The notes below the pieces were generated by a model, which saw nothing but the letters and a program-made list of their open reading frames with translations, searched no databases and was not told the origin of the DNA. Both the position numbers and the translations under genes were made by a program. From the NCBI RefSeq assembly GCF_000712055.1, contig NZ_JOOA01000002.1:744001-808000 (forward strand): a stretch of 64,000 nt of DNA. The letters are read 5' to 3'. This DNA is from Ruminococcus sp. HUN007 (GTDB taxonomy: Bacteria; Bacillota; Clostridia; Oscillospirales; Ruminococcaceae). Below are positions 1,089 to 9,975 of this stretch, piece after piece (position 1 is the stretch's first letter; the number at the start of each line of letters is the position of its first letter).

Positions 1089-1117
1089 TTGACATATATT
1101 ATGAAAAGTTGTATACT
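1089..1117 (+). promoter_or_regulatory. Sigma-70 promoter of the GH11-esterase gene
   Basis: TTGACA (1089-1094), a 17-bp spacer and TATACT (1112-1117). The upstream possible start at 1109 lies inside this promoter, so translation must begin further down, at 1142. Confidence 0.8.
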
Positions 1118-1141
1118 GAGTGCAAAGAAAGAGGTGGTATA

Positions 1142-3286
1142 ATGAAACACACAAATAAGATCGCATGTTGTTTCATAGCATTATCAATGGCTCTGCCTGT
1201 CGCAGCATCGCCGGAACTGATCAGTGTAAACGATATACTGACTGTTAAAGCTGCAGATCAGGTCGGACAGAAATTCACTGTAGGCAATGGTCAGACACAG
1301 CACAAAGCCGACAACGTTGACGGCTACAGCTATGAGATCTGGCTTGACAACACTGGCGGAAGCGGTTCCATGACGCTCGGAAGCGGCGGTACATTCAGCA
1401 CAGACTGGAGCGCTACAGTTTCAAGAGGTAACTTCCTTGCCCGCCGAGGCAGAAACTATGACGCTACAAAGAAAGCTACCGAATACGGTCCTATCGTAAT
1501 GGACTACGCTGCTGACTATTCAGCAAGCTCACAGGGTAACTCAAGACTCTGCGTATACGGCTGGATGAAGAATCCTCTCGTTGAATACTACATCATCGAA
1601 GACTGGGTAAACTGGTGCCCGAAGCCAAACGGTGCAAGCAAGACAGTTACGATCGACGGTGCTGAATACGAGATCTTCCAGCTCGATCACACAGGTCCTA
1701 CTATCCTCGGTACAAACGAAACATTCAAGCAGTACTTCAGTGTCCGCAAGTCAAAGAGAACATCAGGTACTATCACAGTATCAGATCACTTCAAGGCATG
1801 GGCAGACGCAGGCTGGAACATAGGTAACCTTACTGAAGTTGCTCTCAACGTTGAAGGATGGGAAAGCAGCGGTAAGGCTAACGTAACAAAGCTCACTATC
1901 GGCGAAACCGGCAGCGGAAACACAAACCCTTCACAGGGGCAGACTAATCCGACACAGGGCCAGGATCCAGGCCAAATGCCTTGGGGCCAGATGCCTTGGG
2001 GTCAGGGACAGGATCCGGGACAAATGCCTTGGGGCCAGATGCCTTGGGGACAGGATCCGGGTCAGACAAACCCTCAGAATCCTGGTGTAAATCAGAACCC
2101 GAATCCAAACGGACAGCAGAATCCTGACACAAATTCAAACCCACAGCCGTCAGCATTCTCAGGCAGTCTTTCTGATATTCAGAAACAGGCAAAGGCCGAC
2201 TTTACTTCAAACGTACCTGCTGAGGCAAAGCAGACTGACTCAGGCAAGCTTACAAAGATAAAATACCAGTCAAAGAAAGCAAACAGACAGAAGCCTGCAA
2301 ACGTATGGCTTCCGGAAGGCTACACAGAAGGAAAGAAATATCCTGTTCTCTACGTAAATCACGGCGTAATGGGCGGCGAAGACGACCTTACAAAAGGCTG
2401 GGGAATCTGCGAAATGGCTTCATACTTCATCAAGAAAGGTATAACAAAGCCATTCATCATCGTATTTACACAAATGTATACAGATCCAAAGTCAGACAGA
2501 GCGCAGGGCATCACACAGGATGCTATGGACCGTTATGATGACTTCCTCTACGATCTCACTGAAAGCCTTATGCCATACATGGCTGAACACTATTCAGTAG
2601 CTGAAGGCAGAGAAAACACAGCTATCTGCGGATTCTCAATGGGCGGCAGAGAGTCACTCTATATCGGTATGAAGGCATGTGACAAGATCGGTTACGTTGC
2701 AGCTTCATCCCCTGCTCCAGGTATCGTACCTGCACAGGATATGTTCCTCAACCACCGCGGAAGCATGACTGAATCTGAATTCAAATTTGCTACTGCACCT
2801 TATCTGCTTATGATAGGCGGAGGTACAAACGACTCTGTCGTTGGAACATTCCCTAAGCAGTATCATGAACTTTATGACAAGAACGGCGTGGACAATATCT
2901 GGTTTGAAGTACCGGGTGCAGGTCATGACGCTTCTGTAGGCACACCACTGTTCTACAACTTCATCGGACACATCTTCCCTGTCAGTGCAGCACAGTCGGC
3001 ACAGCCTTCTCCAAGCCCGTCTCCAAGTCCTTCTCCAAGTCCTTCTCCATCTCCGAAACCTGTTCAGAGTCCTTCACCTGAACCGACTCATAACGGCGGA
3101 AGCAACGTTGTTGAAGGCGATGCTGACGGCAACGGCTCAGTAAATACAACTGACCTTACCGTTCTTATGAAGCACCTTATCGGAGCTTCATCTATCAAGT
3201 CAGAAAACGTAAAAAATGCTGACTTAAACGGTGACGGAAAAATCTCCATCATCGACCTTATCAAGCTCAAGAACAAGTTATCATAA
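1142..3286 (+). CDS. Secreted bifunctional GH11 xylanase / CE1-type esterase with dockerin
   Basis: The 714-residue protein has a signal peptide (about 1-38), a GH11 xylanase (about 40-255), a linker (260-340), an esterase of the CE1/esterase D type (about 345-615), a Pro-Ser linker (622-640) and a type I dockerin (658-714). GH11 catalytic glutamates are visible as E148 (NPLVEYY) and E238 (NVEGW). The esterase shows the nucleophile in GFSMGG (S499) and a likely catalytic His in GAGHD (H595). It would cut xylan and remove feruloyl or acetyl side groups on one polypeptide bound to the cellulosome. The first linker is unusual, with four MPWGQ-type repeats. The start at 1142 is chosen because GAGGTGG lies just upstream and the promoter ends at 1117. 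Whether the esterase is feruloyl or acetylxylan specific cannot be told from sequence. Confidence 0.93.
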   Translation: MKHTNKIACCFIALSMALPVAASPELISVNDILTVKAADQVGQKFTVGNGQTQHKADNVDGYSYEIWLDNTGGSGSMTLGSGGTFSTDWSATVSRGNFLARRGRNYDATKKATEYGPIVMDYAADYSASSQGNSRLCVYGWMKNPLVEYYIIEDWVNWCPKPNGASKTVTIDGAEYEIFQLDHTGPTILGTNETFKQYFSVRKSKRTSGTITVSDHFKAWADAGWNIGNLTEVALNVEGWESSGKANVTKLTIGETGSGNTNPSQGQTNPTQGQDPGQMPWGQMPWGQGQDPGQMPWGQMPWGQDPGQTNPQNPGVNQNPNPNGQQNPDTNSNPQPSAFSGSLSDIQKQAKADFTSNVPAEAKQTDSGKLTKIKYQSKKANRQKPANVWLPEGYTEGKKYPVLYVNHGVMGGEDDLTKGWGICEMASYFIKKGITKPFIIVFTQMYTDPKSDRAQGITQDAMDRYDDFLYDLTESLMPYMAEHYSVAEGRENTAICGFSMGGRESLYIGMKACDKIGYVAASSPAPGIVPAQDMFLNHRGSMTESEFKFATAPYLLMIGGGTNDSVVGTFPKQYHELYDKNGVDNIWFEVPGAGHDASVGTPLFYNFIGHIFPVSAAQSAQPSPSPSPSPSPSPSPSPKPVQSPSPEPTHNGGSNVVEGDADGNGSVNTTDLTVLMKHLIGASSIKSENVKNADLNGDGKISIIDLIKLKNKLS

Positions 3287-3303
3287 AACACTGTTTATAA
3301 GAA

Positions 3304-3352
3304 ATCACTGAACGGTCCCGGGATCCGGTATACCGTTTCCCGGGAAAGTGAT
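3304..3352 (+). terminator. Long inverted repeat after the GH11-esterase gene
   Basis: Nested arms ATCACT/AGTGAT, TCCCGGG/CCCGGGA and the palindromic CGGTATACCG form one long hairpin 17 bases after the stop. No clean T-run follows, so it may be an imperfect terminator or an mRNA-stabilising 3' structure. Confidence 0.55.
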
Positions 3353-3433
3353 CTTATTGATGTGAGTCATCTAAACCAGTTATATTCTGAACCATATCGA
3401 GTAGGAGGCGGCAATGAGCCGCCGACCTCTCAC

Positions 3434-3467
3434 ACCACCGTACGTACGGTTCCGTATACGGCGGTTC
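3434..3467 (-). ncRNA. Group II intron domain V (catalytic hairpin)
   Basis: A 34-nt hairpin reads GAACCGCCGTATACGG... on the minus strand with a GGAACC turn, in the expected place between the RT stop codon and the intron 3' end. A domain VI-like stem with GGCGGC/GCCGCC arms follows (about 3400-3430). Confidence 0.8.
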
Positions 3468-3469
3468 AA

Positions 3470-4165
3470 TCAACTTAACGTTTTATTATAATAATCTAAC
3501 ATCGAGACTAGTCCAAATTTGGCTAGTCTCTCATTGCTTATGGCTTTCTGCACCCATCCGTTATGGGCTAGGCGTGCATATCTATTTCCGCAGTATGCGA
3601 TTTTATATGCCGCCCATCTCTCAACACCAAGTTTTATTAGGTTCTTGGCTCTATTTCGTGGAGTTTTCCAAAATTTCCATATACACATACGAAGTCTAAC
3701 TCTTATTCTTATATCGAGTTCTTGGCAAAGTCTTTTCATACTTCCAATTCTAAAGTAATTTATCCATCCTCGAATAAGCTGGTTCAGTTTTGAAACCTTG
3801 TAACTGTTACTTACTCCCCAGTTTCGACATGTTAATTCTCTCATTCTTTTCTTGAATTTCTGTACCGATTTCATGTGAGGTTTAGCTTTATACTGATGAG
3901 CTTTTCTATCGTGATAAAATCCAAATCCAAGATATTTTATGCCTTGCGGCTTATCTACTTTACTCTTTGATATATTCACCTTAAGTCCAAGTTTATCTTC
4001 GATGAATTTTGAGATATTTCTCATCACTCGTCTGGCAGACATTTCGCTTCCAACCATGATGATGCAGTCATCCGCATACCTCACAAAGTTCAGACCTCGC
4101 TTTTCCATTTCCTTGTCGAGTTCATTAAGCATGATGTTGGCTAGCAGTGGCGAGAGATTTCCACC
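3470..4165 (-). pseudogene. ltrA: Group II intron reverse transcriptase, C-terminal half
   Basis: This is the 3' part of the intron-encoded protein. It reads on from the GTPQGG motif of the N-terminal half: NLSPLLANIMLNELDKEME, then the RT catalytic motif FVRYADDC, then a maturase (domain X) region with LNQLIRGWINYF and RLRMCIWKFWK. Joining 8854-9531 to 3470-4159 restores an uninterrupted 455-residue protein. No endonuclease domain follows. The gene was cut between GTPQGG and NLSPLL by the RIT element, so the catalytic YADD lies on the detached half. Confidence 0.9.
4160..4165. repeat. 6-bp duplication TCCACC flanking the RIT element (left copy)
   Basis: TCCACC occurs here and at 8854-8859. 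One copy plus the flanks rebuilds the intact RT reading frame (GGTGGA within GTPQGG codons). It marks the staggered exchange made at insertion. Confidence 0.8.
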
Positions 4166-4303
4166 TTATGCAAAGAAAGTTGTTATGCTAAGTAACACAT
4201 CATAGAGCACGAATTTTCGTAATTTGCTATTGCACAACTTTGCATAATATCCGAGAATATATAATGAGTTCACAACTCAAAAATATATTTTCGGAGGTAA
4301 ACT

Positions 4304-5539
4304 ATGAATCAAAAGCTATTATCTGACTTGGTTTCAGATTTGGAACAGGAACTTTTACGTCTTGGTTATACGGAAGGCAGCATGTGCTTCTATCGAAGAA
4401 GATGGAAGCAGCTGATAAATTATGCTGAAGAGCATAATGAAGAATACTTTACTGAACAACTTGGAATCGCTTTTCTCAAAGATAAATTTGGAATAGCTCA
4501 AGATGATTTTGCCAAAGTACTTCCTCAAAAAGAAACTCAGGAAATACGCGTTATTCGTATGATAGGCGATTTTCAAATACATCATGCGGTACTTCGACGT
4601 TACATGAAGCATAAAGAAATCCTTACAGACCCGGTATTTGTTGAAGCCAGAGTGAAATTTAAGGATTTCTGTATTGAAAAAGGCTATTCCAAAGTTACAA
4701 TCGGACATTACGTTAAGCAGTCAGCATACATGATGGATTACCTGTCTGCAAATGAAATAAGTGATTTTAATGACGTAACTATAGATATCATCTTTGCATA
4801 TATACGTACTCTTGCGGGATTTACTTACAAAACAATTGAACAGAATATGTGTTCACTAAGAGCTTTCTTCAGATTTCTTTATCAAAATGAAATGATAAAC
4901 CATGATCTGGCAAGTGAAATGCCAATGATCAAGGCGCGTAAGCAGACAAATATTCCTTCAGTATGGACACATGATGAATTGAAAAAACTTATCGGAGCAA
5001 TTGATCGTGGAAATCCGAAAGGAAAACGAGATTATGCAATTATTCTTATTGCCTGCCGGCTTGGTTTAAGATGCAAGGACATTAAAGAGCTTCGGTTTGA
5101 AAACTTTAACTGGTCAGAAAAAAAGCTCTGTTTTACTCAGTCTAAAACCAAACAGCCAATGGAATTGCCTCTTGTTCCGGATGTCGGATGGGCTGTAATT
5201 GATTATCTTAAATATGGAAGGCCTAAGGTGGACAGTCCGTATATTTTTGTGCGTCATCTTGCACCGTTTCTGCCTTTTTCAGATGAAGATCATCTTAATC
5301 AGTTAATCAAAACCTATATGATTAAGGCTCATATTTCAACAGCAAACAAGCATAGAGGTATGCATAGTTTAAGGCATACTATGGCAAGTGTACTTCTTGA
5401 AAAAGAAACACCTCTTCCGGTGATTTCAGATATCATAGGTCACATAGATACAAATTCTACTGCCGTTTATCTTAAAGTTGATATGAAGCAGCTCTCTGAA
5501 TGTCCATTGGATTTTGAGGAGGCGATTGATCTTGGCTGA
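4304..5539 (+). CDS. ritA: RIT element tyrosine recombinase A
   Basis: A 411-residue phage-integrase-family recombinase, first of the trio. Catalytic residues visible are R256 (GLRCKD), the H-x-x-R box at 354-357 (HSLRH), the following GHIDTNSTAVY, and the nucleophile Y389. The N-terminal half contains a SAM-like core-binding domain that starts near residue 110; the first 100 residues are an extra N-terminal segment. The start codon at 4304 has CGGAGG 6 bases upstream. The stop overlaps the ritB start, so the genes are translationally coupled. It should act with RitB and RitC to cut and join the element ends. Confidence 0.88.
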   Translation: MNQKLLSDLVSDLEQELLRLGYTEGSMCFYRRRWKQLINYAEEHNEEYFTEQLGIAFLKDKFGIAQDDFAKVLPQKETQEIRVIRMIGDFQIHHAVLRRYMKHKEILTDPVFVEARVKFKDFCIEKGYSKVTIGHYVKQSAYMMDYLSANEISDFNDVTIDIIFAYIRTLAGFTYKTIEQNMCSLRAFFRFLYQNEMINHDLASEMPMIKARKQTNIPSVWTHDELKKLIGAIDRGNPKGKRDYAIILIACRLGLRCKDIKELRFENFNWSEKKLCFTQSKTKQPMELPLVPDVGWAVIDYLKYGRPKVDSPYIFVRHLAPFLPFSDEDHLNQLIKTYMIKAHISTANKHRGMHSLRHTMASVLLEKETPLPVISDIIGHIDTNSTAVYLKVDMKQLSECPLDFEEAIDLG

Positions 5540-5679
5540 AAATGAATTTTCCGGACCATTTGCTAAAGAAATGAGCGATTTCGTTGAATTAAAGATGGCG
5601 CTTGGTTACAAATACACTACCGAAAGAGGCATATTAAAACGTTTCGGAAGCTTTCTTTCATCAGAATACGATGATTTAG

Positions 5680-6904
5680 GGAAACGCTGAATAAGTCGTG
5701 ATATAATAAAATATCCTTGTAATATTGGAATAATATTGAAATGCGAATCGCTATTCGAGCATTTACCTCATTTTTTTATTATTTTTTGCGGAATTAATCC
5801 GCATTAGGGTACACTTACCCCTTGCAAAATTCTGCAGTTCTTCCTGCACGAGAACACATCAGCAAATTTGCTGATGCGAATAGAAAATTGAATCTATTCA
5901 TGTTCTTTTTTATTCCTTTGTATGCTACTTTTGAGTATCCAAATGTATTCTTTACAATGAGGAAAGCATGTTCCACTTTGCATCTTACTGATGACTTATC
6001 ATGCTCCATCTTTTTTATCCCAGTTAATACCGTTATAGTCATCTGAGGTTTTTAAACTTGACGGTCTTTTATTGATTTCAAACTTCATGTTTTTATGATG
6101 CTCATCCTGTTTTATGGCATTCTGTGCCGGAACACCAAGATAACCAGAATCGCCGTACATTATTTCATCATCATTGCGAATAAGCTTAGATGCTTCAGTG
6201 GAATCATGCACATTTGCCGCTGTTCCGGTTATTGTATGCACATATCCTGTTCCAGCATCTACTCCAGCATGTACCTTCATTCCATGATACCACTGATTGC
6301 CTTTCTTAGTCTGATGCATTTCAGGATCACGTTCTCCCTTGGCATTCTTTGTTGAACTTGGTGCTGCAATTATTGTTGCGTCAACAATTGTACCACCATG
6401 CATGATAAGTCCTGCCTTTTCAAGTCGATCATTAACGTCCTTGAAAATAGCGTCGCCGATATTATGTTCTTCAAGAAGATGTCGAAACTTCAGTAATGTT
6501 GTTGCATCCGGAACTTGTTCATGCATAAAATTTATTTTCATGAATTTTCTCATTGCATAGCTATCATAAATAGCATCTTCGACACCTTCATCTGATAGAT
6601 TGAACCAATCCTGAAGAAGATACATTCTAAGCATGGTCTCGATACCTTTTACAGGTCTGCCATGATTACCTGACGGATAGTAAGGAGCGATTATCTGAAT
6701 CCATGAATCCCATGGAATTATCTCTTCCATTCTATTAAGAAACGCTTCTTTTTTTCCCTGACGCTTTCTAAGGGAATATTCCATATCGCTGAAACTTAAC
6801 TGTCCGTTCATATCAAAATACCTCGCATAATATATTTTATTAACTACATTATATCATATATACGACAATTTGTCAATACTAACGTCGATTAAATCAGCGT
6901 TTCC
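5680..6904 (-). mobile_element. IS5-family insertion sequence inside ritB
   Basis: The element is 1225 bp. Its ends are inverted: GGAAACGCTGAATAAG at the left and, read inwards on the minus strand, GGAAACGCTGATTTAATC at the right. Direct repeats TTAG flank it (5676-5679 and 6905-6908), matching the YTAR duplication typical of IS5-group elements. The single transposase gene is on the minus strand. The same terminal sequence caps two MITE copies at 51450 and 62905. Confidence 0.9.
5815..6811 (-). pseudogene. IS5-type DDE transposase, frame broken at an A-run
   Basis: The DDE transposase is read in two frames: residues 1-270 from 6811 down to 5999, and the C-terminal 60-75 residues from about 6016 to 5815. 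DUF772-type N-terminal sequence, the first Asp (GGTIVDATIIAAP) and the second Asp (MYGDSGYLG) are in the first frame. The catalytic Glu (CKVEHAFLIVK) is in the second. The switch falls at six A residues (plus 6011-6016); five would give one continuous protein. The phase does not fit the usual -1 A AAA AAG signal, so it is either decay, an assembly error or a +1/slippage event. GAGGTA lies 8 bases before the 6811 start. Confidence 0.82.
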
Positions 6905-7722
6905 TTAGATTCATTATCAAAAGAAGCTGTGACGAAGTGGTGCTCAAAAACACTGCATGAAACAGACAACAACCATTGTTCGCGCGCTTCTTTAGTAAGG
7001 CAATTTTCAAAGTATTTGAATAGCATTGGTATTAAAGCGTGGGTATTGCCTAATAAATATTATCCTAAAGGCAATAAATACATACCGCATATTTATACTC
7101 CTGATGAATTAACACGCTTTTTTTCAGCAACTGATAAATGCACATACTGCTCTGAAGTTCCATATCGTCATTTAATTATGCCGGTTTTCTTCAGGCTTCT
7201 TCTTTCCAGTGGATTACGATGTTCCGAAGCTCGAATGCTAACTGTTGATGATGTGGATTTGGATCTTGGCATACTTAAAATATCTGATTCAAAGAACCAC
7301 AATGACCGATTAGTACCACTTTCAAAAACAATGCTTATCAGACTTCAAAGGTATTCAGAACAGGTTCATTCTTCAGGTTCACATGAATTCTTTTTTCCAG
7401 GATACAAAGAAAAACCTATGACGTTAGGAAATGTGTACAAGAATTTTAGACGTTTTCTATGGAAGGCTGGAATATCACATACTGGAGACGGTCCAAGAGT
7501 TCATGATTTCCGTCATACGTATTGTGTTTTTAAATTGCGGGAATGGGCTGAACAGGGAAAAGATCTGATGGTATTAATTCCTCTTATGCGAACATATCTC
7601 GGTCATCAGACATTCAATGAAACGGCTTACTATCTCAAATGGACTGCTGATGTATTTCCTGATATCAGACTTAAACTTGAAAGATATTGTGAAGGTATCA
7701 TACCTGAAATGGAGGAATTTCA

Positions 7723-8733
7723 ATGACTCCAACAGATTTCTCTAAACATCTTACCGATTTCTTCTCGAATTACCTTCCACTGCAGAAAAATGTCAGCAAA
7801 AACACGATAAAGGCTTACAGAGACACTTTTAAACTTCTCTTATACTTTTGCGAAAGCGAAGAAAAAATCAAACCTGAAAAACTTTCCATGCATCATTTAT
7901 CATCGGATCTCATAGAGCGATTTTTGCTATGGTTGGAAACAGAAAGAAATTGTTCTGTTTCTACAAGAAATCTAAGATTAGCTGCTCTTCATGCTTTTTT
8001 CAGATATGCTCAGTCTGAGTCACCGGAGTCGTTATTTCATTACCAGAAAGTTATTGCTATTCCTGTGAAGAAAAAGAAACAATCTATTGTTGAACACCTT
8101 TCTCCTGAAGCGGTTAGATTACTTTTGGAACAACCGGACAGAACAACTACACAAGGAAGACGAGATCTGGCTTTACTCAGTCTTTTGTATGACAGCGGCG
8201 CAAGAGTGCAGGAACTTATTGATCTTTCTGTCTCCGATTTTGTTGCCGGTTCTAATCCCATACTTATACTAACAGGAAAAGGAAACAAAATCCGGCGTGT
8301 ACCGATAATGAACAATACAGCAGTTCTGGTTCAAAAGTATATATCTGAAAACAAGCTTGATTTACCTCATAAATGCAATTATCCTCTTTTCACAAACAAA
8401 CAGCATAGTAAACTTACAAAAGAAGGCGTTGCATATATTCTCAATAAATATGCAGTAATGGCTCGAGAAAAGACTGATAAAATACCGGTTAAAGTTAAAT
8501 GTCATATGCTCCGCCATTCAAAAGCTGTTCACCTTTTACAGGCTGGCGTAAACTTGATTTATATCCGCGATTTTTTAGGCCATAGTGACATTAAAACTAC
8601 TGAAATTTATGCAAGAGCAGATTCCGAACTCAAAAGAAAAGCTCTGGAAAATGCTTATCCCGATTTGGTAGATACTAATTTACCAGACTGGAATGAAAAT
8701 ACTGATCTTATGAACTGGCTTTCAAAACTGTGA
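7723..8733 (+). CDS. ritC: RIT element tyrosine recombinase C
   Basis: The third recombinase of the trio, 336 residues, begins inside the ritB stop (ATGA overlap). It has a SAM-like N-terminal core-binding domain (about 5-100) and an intact catalytic domain with R in DSGARVQEL, the box CHMLRHSKAVHLL, and GHSDIKTTEIYARAD with the nucleophile tyrosine. It is the shortest and most XerC/D-like of the three. It ends 12 bases before the first TTATGCAAAG repeat of the right end. Confidence 0.88.
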   Translation: MTPTDFSKHLTDFFSNYLPLQKNVSKNTIKAYRDTFKLLLYFCESEEKIKPEKLSMHHLSSDLIERFLLWLETERNCSVSTRNLRLAALHAFFRYAQSESPESLFHYQKVIAIPVKKKKQSIVEHLSPEAVRLLLEQPDRTTTQGRRDLALLSLLYDSGARVQELIDLSVSDFVAGSNPILILTGKGNKIRRVPIMNNTAVLVQKYISENKLDLPHKCNYPLFTNKQHSKLTKEGVAYILNKYAVMAREKTDKIPVKVKCHMLRHSKAVHLLQAGVNLIYIRDFLGHSDIKTTEIYARADSELKRKALENAYPDLVDTNLPDWNENTDLMNWLSKL

Positions 8734-8745
8734 TTTAAACAGAAG

Positions 8746-8853
8746 ATTATGCAAAGCAACATTCCCATGAATCACGATTTTATTGGTTTTATGCGAATTA
8801 CTTTGAATAATATTTTTCTTTGCATAAGGTGGATTATGCAAAGCTTCGCATAA
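8746..8853. repeat. RIT right terminus with five TTATGCRAAN-type motifs
   Basis: Motifs occur at 8746-8755 (+), 8789-8798 (+, diverged), 8818-8827 (-), 8834-8843 (+) and 8844-8853 (-). The last pair forms a 20-bp palindrome framed by GGTGGA (8828-8833) and TCCACC (8854-8859), giving a perfect 12-bp inverted repeat around 8 bases. Paired arms around 6-bp spacers resemble tyrosine recombinase core sites. Confidence 0.75.
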
Positions 8854-9531
8854 TCCACCCTGTGGAGTTCCAATGACTGACTCTTCATATTCATCGTCAA
8901 TCATTATTCCACTTACAAGGTATTTTCTGATTATTGAGATCACATCGCCATCTTTTATTGTCTTGCCCACCAGTGTCATTAGCTTATCATGATTTACCGT
9001 ATCAAAGAACTTTTCAAGGTCAATGTCTACAATCCAGTCGTTCCCGTCATTCATTATATCCAATGCGGTCAAGATTGCCTGTTGTGCACATCTGTTTGGC
9101 CTGAATCCGTAACTGTGTTCATGGAATTGTGCTTCATAAATTGGTGTAAGTACCTGTGCTATAGCTTGTTGGATAAATCTGTCGGTTACCGTTGGTACTC
9201 CCAGATTTCTTACTCCGCCGTCAGGTTTGGGTATTCCTATTCTTCGAACCGGCTGAGGTTTATATTTTCTTGTTCTCAGCTGTTCTCTGATTGTTTCGCC
9301 GTTCTTTTCAAGGTGTTCTTTGAGTTCTGTGTATTTCATTCCATCCACACCCTCTGCTCCTTTATTCCGAACGACTTGCAGATATGCTCTGTTAAGATTG
9401 TTTCTTGACAATATCTGCTCCATTAGATTATTTGTTTCCACGCGTTCTTTCCTTTCCGTCTCGCTTGATTTGACCACCCTTTTTCCCGATTGGTTACGGC
9501 AGATGTTTGTCATTTCTGCAATTCGAGACAT
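8854..9531 (-). pseudogene. ltrA: Group II intron reverse transcriptase, N-terminal half
   Basis: This is the first 226 codons of the intron-encoded protein, from 9531 to the RIT junction. It shows RT-0/RT-1 sequence (NKGAEGVDGM), RKYKPQPVRRIGIPKP, RFIQQAIAQVL, YGFRPNRCAQ, the first catalytic Asp in VDIDLEKFFDTVNHD, and GTPQGG at the break. Past the break the frame runs into the RIT end and stops at 8722. A shorter start at 9423 (MEQILSRNN) is possible, but related proteins carry a similar basic N-terminal extension. Confidence 0.9.
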
Positions 9532-9940
9532 ACTTGAACTTATTGATTGTTCGCCCCTTCACTCCATTTCCATTACAGAAACTTCTTCGCTACTATGGGC
9601 TCGGCTGACTTCTCACAGTTCGTTGTTACTACAGCTAATGAGACTGCCTGTGAGACCTCCACGCTTAAGGTGCACGCTCTTTCTCTCCATATATCCGCCA
9701 CATTTACTTTGCTACTACAAATGTGATAGTTATTAGACTTTGTTGTTCTATGCCAACTTATCTCTCGCAGCCCAGCCTCGTATGTGATTTCTGTTCGTCG
9801 GACCAGAGATTTGCCTACAGCTTCCTTCAGATTCCACCTCACGATGGACACCCTTGCTGTTCAGCTATACACTTCCCACTATCTGGGCGTGTTCGGGACT
9901 TTCACCCGTTAGAGCGCGCCCATGGCGCGCAAACACAGTA

Positions 9941-9975
9941 AAAGTGCGTACCTTTTCAGATACGCACTTTTTTAT
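9941..9975 (+). terminator. Terminator-like hairpin next to the intron 5' end
   Basis: AAAGTGCGTA (9941-9950) pairs with TACGCACTTT (9961-9970) and a T-run follows on the plus strand. It is also the 5' exon of the group II intron, consistent with class C intron targeting of terminator stems. It may originally have been the distal terminator of the xylanase gene. Confidence 0.8.

Follow-up and report, generated by a model that had tools for sequence, protein, structure and literature searches.

A 64,000-nucleotide stretch of the genome of Ruminococcus sp. HUN007 (contig NZ_JOOA01000002.1, positions 744,001 to 808,000; hereafter the window, whose numbering is used for coordinates) contains three mobile elements nested inside one another with exact joins: a minus-strand group II intron, within it a recombinases-in-trio (RIT) element, and within this an insertion sequence (IS) of the IS5 type. 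Our analysis suggests that the RIT belongs to a clade that integrates at one codon boundary of the gene for the intron's reverse transcriptase (RT), between PQ and GG of the motif GTPQGG (PQ/GG below). Integration would start from a circle with two attachment cores and leave a footprint of 6 bp. Since insertion splits the RT, the RIT would act as a parasite of the retroelement, sheltered in sequence that the host can lose, and the IS would be a later passenger. From the sequences compared, we consider this reading as a whole to be about 85% probable. The initial annotation had recognized the nesting but treated the position of the RIT in the RT as incidental, whereas it appears to be the element's specific target.

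Rfam, Pfam and NCBIfam models together with sequence comparison support the identity, the boundaries and the physical nesting of the three elements as first described. The intron (3396..9933, minus strand; RF00029, RF02001 and RF01998) has its domains D1-D4 at 9671-9848 and 9554-9633 and its D5/D6 at 3396-3466, all on the minus strand. These catalytic RNA domains surround an open reading frame with RT and maturase domains. Of the span 3396..9935 proposed before, the 3' end (...CTACTCGAT at 3396) agrees with a second intron and stands, but the 5' end probably lies nearer 9933 (TTTGCG), as judged by eye against the intron at locus L010 (loci are designated by L numbers and genomes by G numbers). 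The 5' half of the RT (8860..9531, minus strand; RVT_1, TIGR04416 positions 2-185) ends with IGTPQ, and the 3' half (3470..4165, minus strand; RVT_1 and the GIIM maturase domain, TIGR04416 from position 183) begins with GGNLSPLLAN; the corresponding open reading frames are 8722-9531 with RVT_1 and 3470-4132 with RVT_1 plus GIIM.

The RIT proper (4166..8827, plus strand, including the IS) is bounded by a terminal inverted repeat (TTATGCAAAGAAA...TTTCTTTGCATAA) and carries three adjacent tyrosine recombinase genes in the same direction, all matching Phage_integrase (PF00589): ritA (4304..5539), ritB (5532..7726, split by the IS into 5532-5679 and 6909-7726, with the match on the 3' piece) and ritC (7723..8733). 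The genes overlap, ritA and ritB by 8 bp (5532-5539, if ritB starts at a TTG) and ritB and ritC by the 4 bp ATGA (7723-7726). Around the element lie three 6-bp cores: core3 (4160..4165) on the LSP side of the RT, reading GGTGGA on the RT strand, core1 (8854..8859) on the PQ side, and the inner core2 (8828..8833), which is inverted relative to core1. Core2 and core1 are separated by a 20-bp near-palindrome (TTATGCAAAGCTTCGCATAA, 8834..8853), and the single-stranded segment 8822-8865 folds better than 200 of 200 shuffled sequences. The joins given initially hold: TCCACC occurs at 4160-4165 and 8854-8859, the insert comprises 4166-8853 plus one core, and the IS at 5680-6904 has TTAG on either side. 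When rebuilt, the RT (455 aa) aligns with its uninterrupted public counterpart, protein P0121 (419 aa), gaplessly across the join and with a single residue difference. An IS-free RIT is found in the same genome at L009, in which the frames of ritA, ritB and ritC are all open, including that of the 321-aa RitB from the TTG start; the window RIT matches it exactly after removal of the IS and one TTAG. Because these features have exactly matching counterparts elsewhere, the nesting is not due to chance.

The genome holds three RITs (window, L009 and L010) with 100% identical ritC genes, and all three split intron RTs between PQ and GG. A genome search with TIGR04416 yielded eight matches, corresponding to one intact gene, three genes in two pieces each (split at model position 185/183) and a weaker, RT-like match not included in the gene count; three of the four TIGR04416-type intron RT genes are therefore RIT-hit. 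The three host RTs, compared by halves, are 25-46% identical to each other. Judging from the sequences, identical RIT copies at such different sites imply mobility.

Relatives in other genomes are inserted at the same boundary. We compared the best 80 of 193 loci encoding a RitC relative, 21 of which form a near clade with a RitC identity of 61% or more across the matched part; their contigs are labelled Bacillota, Thermodesulfobacteriota, Pseudomonadota and Lentisphaerota. Among the 18 near-clade loci with readable junctions, 16 break an RT at PQ/GG (L033, L034, L035, L038 to L049 and L103). L036, which ends two bases into the core, L037, which ends about 40 nt beyond it, and L090 have unreadable junctions and are outside these counts. 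In loci whose frame runs intact up to the element, the match to the RT profile stops at position 223-227 and picks up again at 224. A search of the phylum with an alignment found matches at 1e-90 in 25 of 398 genomes (own included), and stretches taken from 11 of the 24 other matching genomes added four loci with the same RT break (L164, L165, L136 and L167; genomes G508, G644 and G438). In total, 23 loci show the PQ/GG break: three in this genome, 16 in the near clade and four from the phylum search. Intron domains were identified with Rfam in eight of the 11 loci searched (L010, L033, L039, L043, L045, L048, L049 and L103) and were not found in L035, L041 and L046.

Some RT-borne loci carry further nested elements. 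At L049 (3765-10614) an outer group II intron RT is seemingly broken by an inner group II intron, the RT of which is broken by the RIT. L040 contains, at about 2500-5835, a second RIT (RitC 36% identical, palindrome ATATGCCGAGCTCGGCATAT) in reverse between ritA and ritC of the clade's RIT, and is hence a RIT within a RIT within an intron RT. At the right end of L038 (3989-4044) the left end of a second RIT follows the palindrome, with differing cores (GGTGGT and GGCGGT); the RITs may be in tandem, or the contig end may represent the joint of a circle. For many of the public contigs that carry the nearest RitC relatives, the maximum length is 3.43-3.5 kb, approximately one RIT, a size that would result from assemblers collapsing RITs present in several copies.

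Mobile elements commonly pile up in neutral DNA, and the intron might be no more than such a neutral place for the RIT. In the control set, an RT broken at the RIT was seen in none of 59 loci of other clades, of which about 43 have at least 200 nt of flanking sequence on one side or more (28 of them on both sides), while the remaining 16 have almost no flank and so could not have shown such a break; nor was one seen in 12 partial loci from family genomes. The two RTs present among the other-clade loci are whole and lie elsewhere. Reading the flanks piecewise and scanning pieces with Pfam or NCBIfam, we could assign a target for 24 of the 59 loci and left 35 unassigned; 19 assignments have a family match and five were made by eye (L075, L076, L079, L081 and L106), two L106 pieces having been scanned with no family match and the other four loci having been assigned without profile scans. 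L102, L111 and one of two L099 pieces gave no family in profile scans. The assigned targets are istA of IS21 and other rve transposases, the Walker A and Walker B regions of istB, other DDE transposases, radC, PP-loop (PAPS reductase) proteins, single-stranded DNA-binding protein (SSB), topoisomerase and an HK97-gp10-like protein, the last three resting on single cases or near-copies; transposition genes make up 16 of the 24. Here, too, breaks recur at exact boundaries: IstB is interrupted at profile position 104 in each of the five scanned Walker A loci (L052, L068, L093, L168 and L182) and at 160-161 in four Walker B loci (L098, L105, L178 and L179, of which L178 and L179 share the same flank), and IS21 at position 227 in eight of nine IS21-type pieces, the ninth (L171) reading to 230. 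L065, a tenth piece scanned alongside, is of the IS481 type. RadC is hit by two RIT relatives (L096 by Pfam, L081 by eye). Chance accumulation leaves the same codon boundary in 23 loci unexplained, as it does the exact boundaries of the sister clades, and we give it practically no credence for the RIT. For the IS in ritB, with its YTAR target and many copies, it remains the best account. One further RIT clade, found in viral contigs (L114-L116) and one genome (L086), has an HK97-gp10-like gene as its neighbour, identified by Pfam at L086 and by eye in the viral contigs.

The junctions follow a uniform plan. On the 5' side of the RT, PQ is followed by core1, the 20-bp palindrome, the inverted core2 and the RIT in 16 of 17 cases, the exception being L042; on the 3' side the RIT is followed by core3 with no palindrome in 20 of 20 (L167 by eye). 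The cores, usually GGNGGN, flank the RIT on both sides as 6-bp spacers between inverted arms, as in the mechanism of strand-biased circularizing integrative elements (SE) and Tn554-like elements. The attachment site attB reads C-A-R in all 16 five-prime strings and G-G in all 19 three-prime strings, then continues mostly as degenerate codons, which indicates that the enzymes tolerate synonymous change; core3 of L040, GGTGCG, also fits this pattern. RIT and RT point the same way in 16 loci and opposite ways in six, L033 being ambiguous. As the palindrome is on the PQ side whichever way the RIT points, target polarity belongs to the core and not to the RIT.

These features could be explained by a circular intermediate. 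The RIT would leave or copy out as a circle, the joint of which would consist of RIT end, core, palindrome, inverted core and RIT end and would hence offer two divergent attachment cores; the predicted joint is CTTTGCATAA-core-palindrome-inverted core-TTATGCAAAG, with the core derived from beside the RIT end. Either core could recombine with the 6-bp core of the host, giving the two orientations. Opposite orientations could alternatively arise by inversion of an integrated RIT between core2 and core3, which are mutually inverted and make this geometrically possible. However, after inversion of the RIT alone the palindrome would read the other way with respect to it, and this slightly asymmetric sequence reads alike in oppositely oriented sisters in three of three genomes (window and L009 versus L010; L164 versus L165; L176 versus L177, the last pair from an amidoligase-targeting RIT). 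Such constancy fits one circle with two divergent cores, and inversion, rejected on the palindrome reading, is an improbable source of both orientations.

After recombination of the circle with the host, the palindrome side would carry the circle's core, and the core of the host would remain next to the RIT end as the 6-bp footprint. At L009 the core next to the RIT is the host-like GGCGGC and that on the palindrome side GGTGGA; introns related to it have GGCAGC (L013, same genome, 86-88% DNA identity) and GGAGGC (L126, same genus). At L103, the RT of which is nearer to the PQGS of L013 than to that of the window, the core beside the RIT codes for GS and the palindrome-side core for GG. These two loci, the ones that can be judged, say that the host core stays beside the RIT, as far as their sequences can tell. 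Cores 1-3 are GGCGGC, GGGGGT and GGTGGA at L164 and GGGGGT, GGTGGA and GGCGGC at L165. This fits a donor-recipient relationship, in that a putative circle from L164, retaining core3 and recombining through its other core, would yield L165 exactly.

Integration into formerly intact introns is also suggested by empty sites. In the complete Formimonas genome that contains L033, two intact copies match the 5' part of the occupied intron with 99.9 and 100% identity over 1,324 bp and read CAGCAG GGTGGA ATTATC at the site of the RIT. For the window RT, the uninterrupted P0121 represents the empty site. For the RTs of L164 and L165 no intact twin was found in the same genome, the one match being an overlapping neighbourhood, and a DNA search of 297 family genomes gave no second copy of the 3' part of the window intron. 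The intact twins of the L033 intron within its own genome also speak against the view that a RIT entered a group II intron once, long ago, and was then carried along by intron retrohoming and vertical descent. All RT-borne copies do sit at one site, and an intron lacking its RT could conceivably be mobilized by an RT acting in trans. Still, RITs that are identical or 99.9% identical occupy RTs only 25-46% identical in two genomes, L034 and L035 are close in the RitC tree while the 3' halves of their RTs are 29% identical over 120 residues, and the RIT orientation varies among copies. Given this decoupling of RIT and RT we reject joint spread, which seems to us very improbable, in favour of targeting of PQ/GG.

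Several observations weigh against our interpretation of the RIT as a PQ/GG-specific parasite. Target specificity is not absolute: the clade includes L051, whose core lies in a different gene, and L050, a decayed locus with a left flank that is not RT sequence. L042 lacks the palindrome, which has been lost, and L167 (RitC 55%) is on a long branch. RitC matched in 12 of 297 family genomes (own included) but exceeded about 51% in our genome only; no RIT of the clade occurs in the other 296, so that spread among near relatives is not seen. Many loci lie on contigs of metagenome-assembled genomes, and host names may be wrong. At L033 (4899-9870) an RT 5' half adjoins the RIT on each side, the two halves differ, both ends carry a palindrome, and the genome's 13 RT matches include no corresponding 3' half; this locus has therefore been rearranged at RIT copies. 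Taken alone, the L164/L165 pair also fits the opposite footprint rule with the direction reversed. Finally, with only sequence data at hand, no circle, excision or transposition has been observed. Outside cellular genomes, a scan of viral contigs with a single RitC found no relative and a scan with alignment A1 gave only relatives of at most 49% identity; RitC relatives on plasmids were all below 60%.

The IS (5680..6904, minus strand, ends GGAAACGC...GCGTTTCC) is confirmed as IS5-type by NF033581 (246 bits, cut-off 140) and is flanked by TTAG duplications at 5676..5679 and 6905..6908. IS5 elements duplicate a 4-bp YTAR target, and of the 11 full-length copies of this element in the genome, the 10 listed with their flanks all have TTAG, CTAA or CTAG on both sides; one of these 10, L186, has unlike flanks (CTAG/CTAA). 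The window copy is 1225 bp long with a broken transposase frame on the minus strand, and the other ten have 1224 bp, one base less, which indicates that intact copies exist. A programmed frameshift at the A-run that splits the window frame was considered and rejected, given the single frame of the L010 copy and the one-base shorter length of 10 of the 11 full copies. Three IS5-type copies lie close together at G000 C2:2775568-2779851, two of them with one common CTAA between them.

The initial annotation held the order of events to be clear, with the IS arriving last. This is not established, because a second, different intron, at L010, holds the same RIT interrupted by the same IS, at an identical position of ritB and in an identical orientation, and the two elements (4,662 bp) differ only by two single-base indels in homopolymers. 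With the IS-bearing RIT present in two different introns, the likeliest course is that the IS had already entered a RIT when at least one of these insertions took place, and the window intron may have received RIT and IS together. Movement of the IS-bearing RIT would need RitB from another copy, or no RitB. If instead the IS entered the window RIT in place, the L010 arrangement would have arisen independently or by gene conversion. As the RIT has 47 YTAR sites, which read TTAG or CTAA in 21 cases, the coincidence amounts to a few per cent, so that an independent insertion at the same ritB site is possible though less likely, and gene conversion between identical copies is conceivable too. The same site and orientation in near-identical 4.66-kb elements of two different introns nevertheless make an IS-last order unlikely.

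The RitC tree clusters loci by target. It is a quick tree of 72 rows computed without bootstrap, from which L114 dropped out and in which L050 is unlabelled. RT-targeting rows fall on one branch (SH-aLRT 92, or 98 when L167 is removed) of 25 rows, comprising 21 RT rows, the unlabelled L036, L037 and L050, and L051. The 12 target labels require 11 changes, the minimum possible, and with the unlabelled rows as a thirteenth group 19 changes are needed compared with a shuffled mean of 46.2; near-copies would cluster under any label, however, and the IstA_rve label pools IS21 with IS481-type and other rve transposases. On these sequences RITs overall could somewhat more probably than otherwise be motif-homing hyperparasites: each clade would have one attachment site in a conserved catalytic motif, mostly of a mobile element, and would insert in either orientation, with fixed target polarity, from a circle with two divergent cores around a 20-bp palindrome. 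The motifs would be PQ/GG of intron RTs, GHEKG of the IS21 IstA, Walker A and B of IstB, HNHPSG of RadC, a DDE transposase motif, the PP-loop and amidoligase, where GHEKG, Walker A, Walker B and HNHPSG are what we take these target motifs to be.

RIT elements were described in 2009-2010 by Van Houdt, Ricker and colleagues. The window element resembles them in its three adjacent, overlapping tyrosine recombinase genes, its length of about 3.4 kb, its terminal inverted repeat and the palindrome at one end. In the passages available from the papers cited here, gene overlaps of 4-8 bp, the inverted repeat and the palindrome are reported (PMC3414803), radC and IS66/Tn6049 transposase genes are mentioned as harbouring RIT copies (PMC2864759, PMC3414803), RitA is described with two core-binding domains and RitC with an extra C-terminal helix (PMC8138268), and target specificity, empty site and movement are entered as NT, not formally tested (PMC10214605, Table 1). 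These passages give no target rule, whereas the elements described here target PQ/GG of group II intron RTs. Our literature search found neither a link between RITs and group II introns nor a target rule within its coverage, outside which Ricker 2013, Nielsen 2017 and Van Houdt 2009 fall, and an earlier mention is possible. The same available passages describe SE and GInts with a 6-bp core in imperfect inverted repeats, the host core at one end and the imported core at the other (PMC10214605), much as here; they also list Tn554 elements as tyrosine recombinase transposons with a 6-bp footprint (PMC10214605). SE encode IntA, Tfp, IntB and Srap, but frames of at least 150 codons in the L009 element are RitA, RitB and RitC only, and Tn554 has a TnpA/B/C gene set. 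Tn554 targets radC, carries cargo genes and is not known to have a two-core palindrome. Inteins and homing endonuclease elements likewise use the coding DNA of conserved active sites as a durable target, but they splice out or keep the host gene working, whereas the RIT splits it. The group II intron and the IS5-type element are ordinary members of their families and unusual only in what is inserted.

For RITs, the sequence record defines the attB and provides exact empty sites, a 6-bp footprint and a circle joint that can be tested. With three of four intron RT genes split in one genome, the clade would be a dedicated DNA-transposon parasite of group II introns, and the general rule behind this targeting deserves testing. 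If clades indeed swap the target motif within the same architecture, they would provide natural material on how tyrosine recombinases change specificity.

Just upstream of the intron's 5' end lies a terminator-like hairpin (9940..9973, minus strand), and comparable hairpins precede the L010 and L049 introns as judged by eye. Beside the intron's 3' end, at 1109-3286, the window encodes a large, secreted-looking protein that has, by eye only, an esterase-like part, a dockerin-like C-terminus and repeated G/Q/P-rich and PSPSP linkers.

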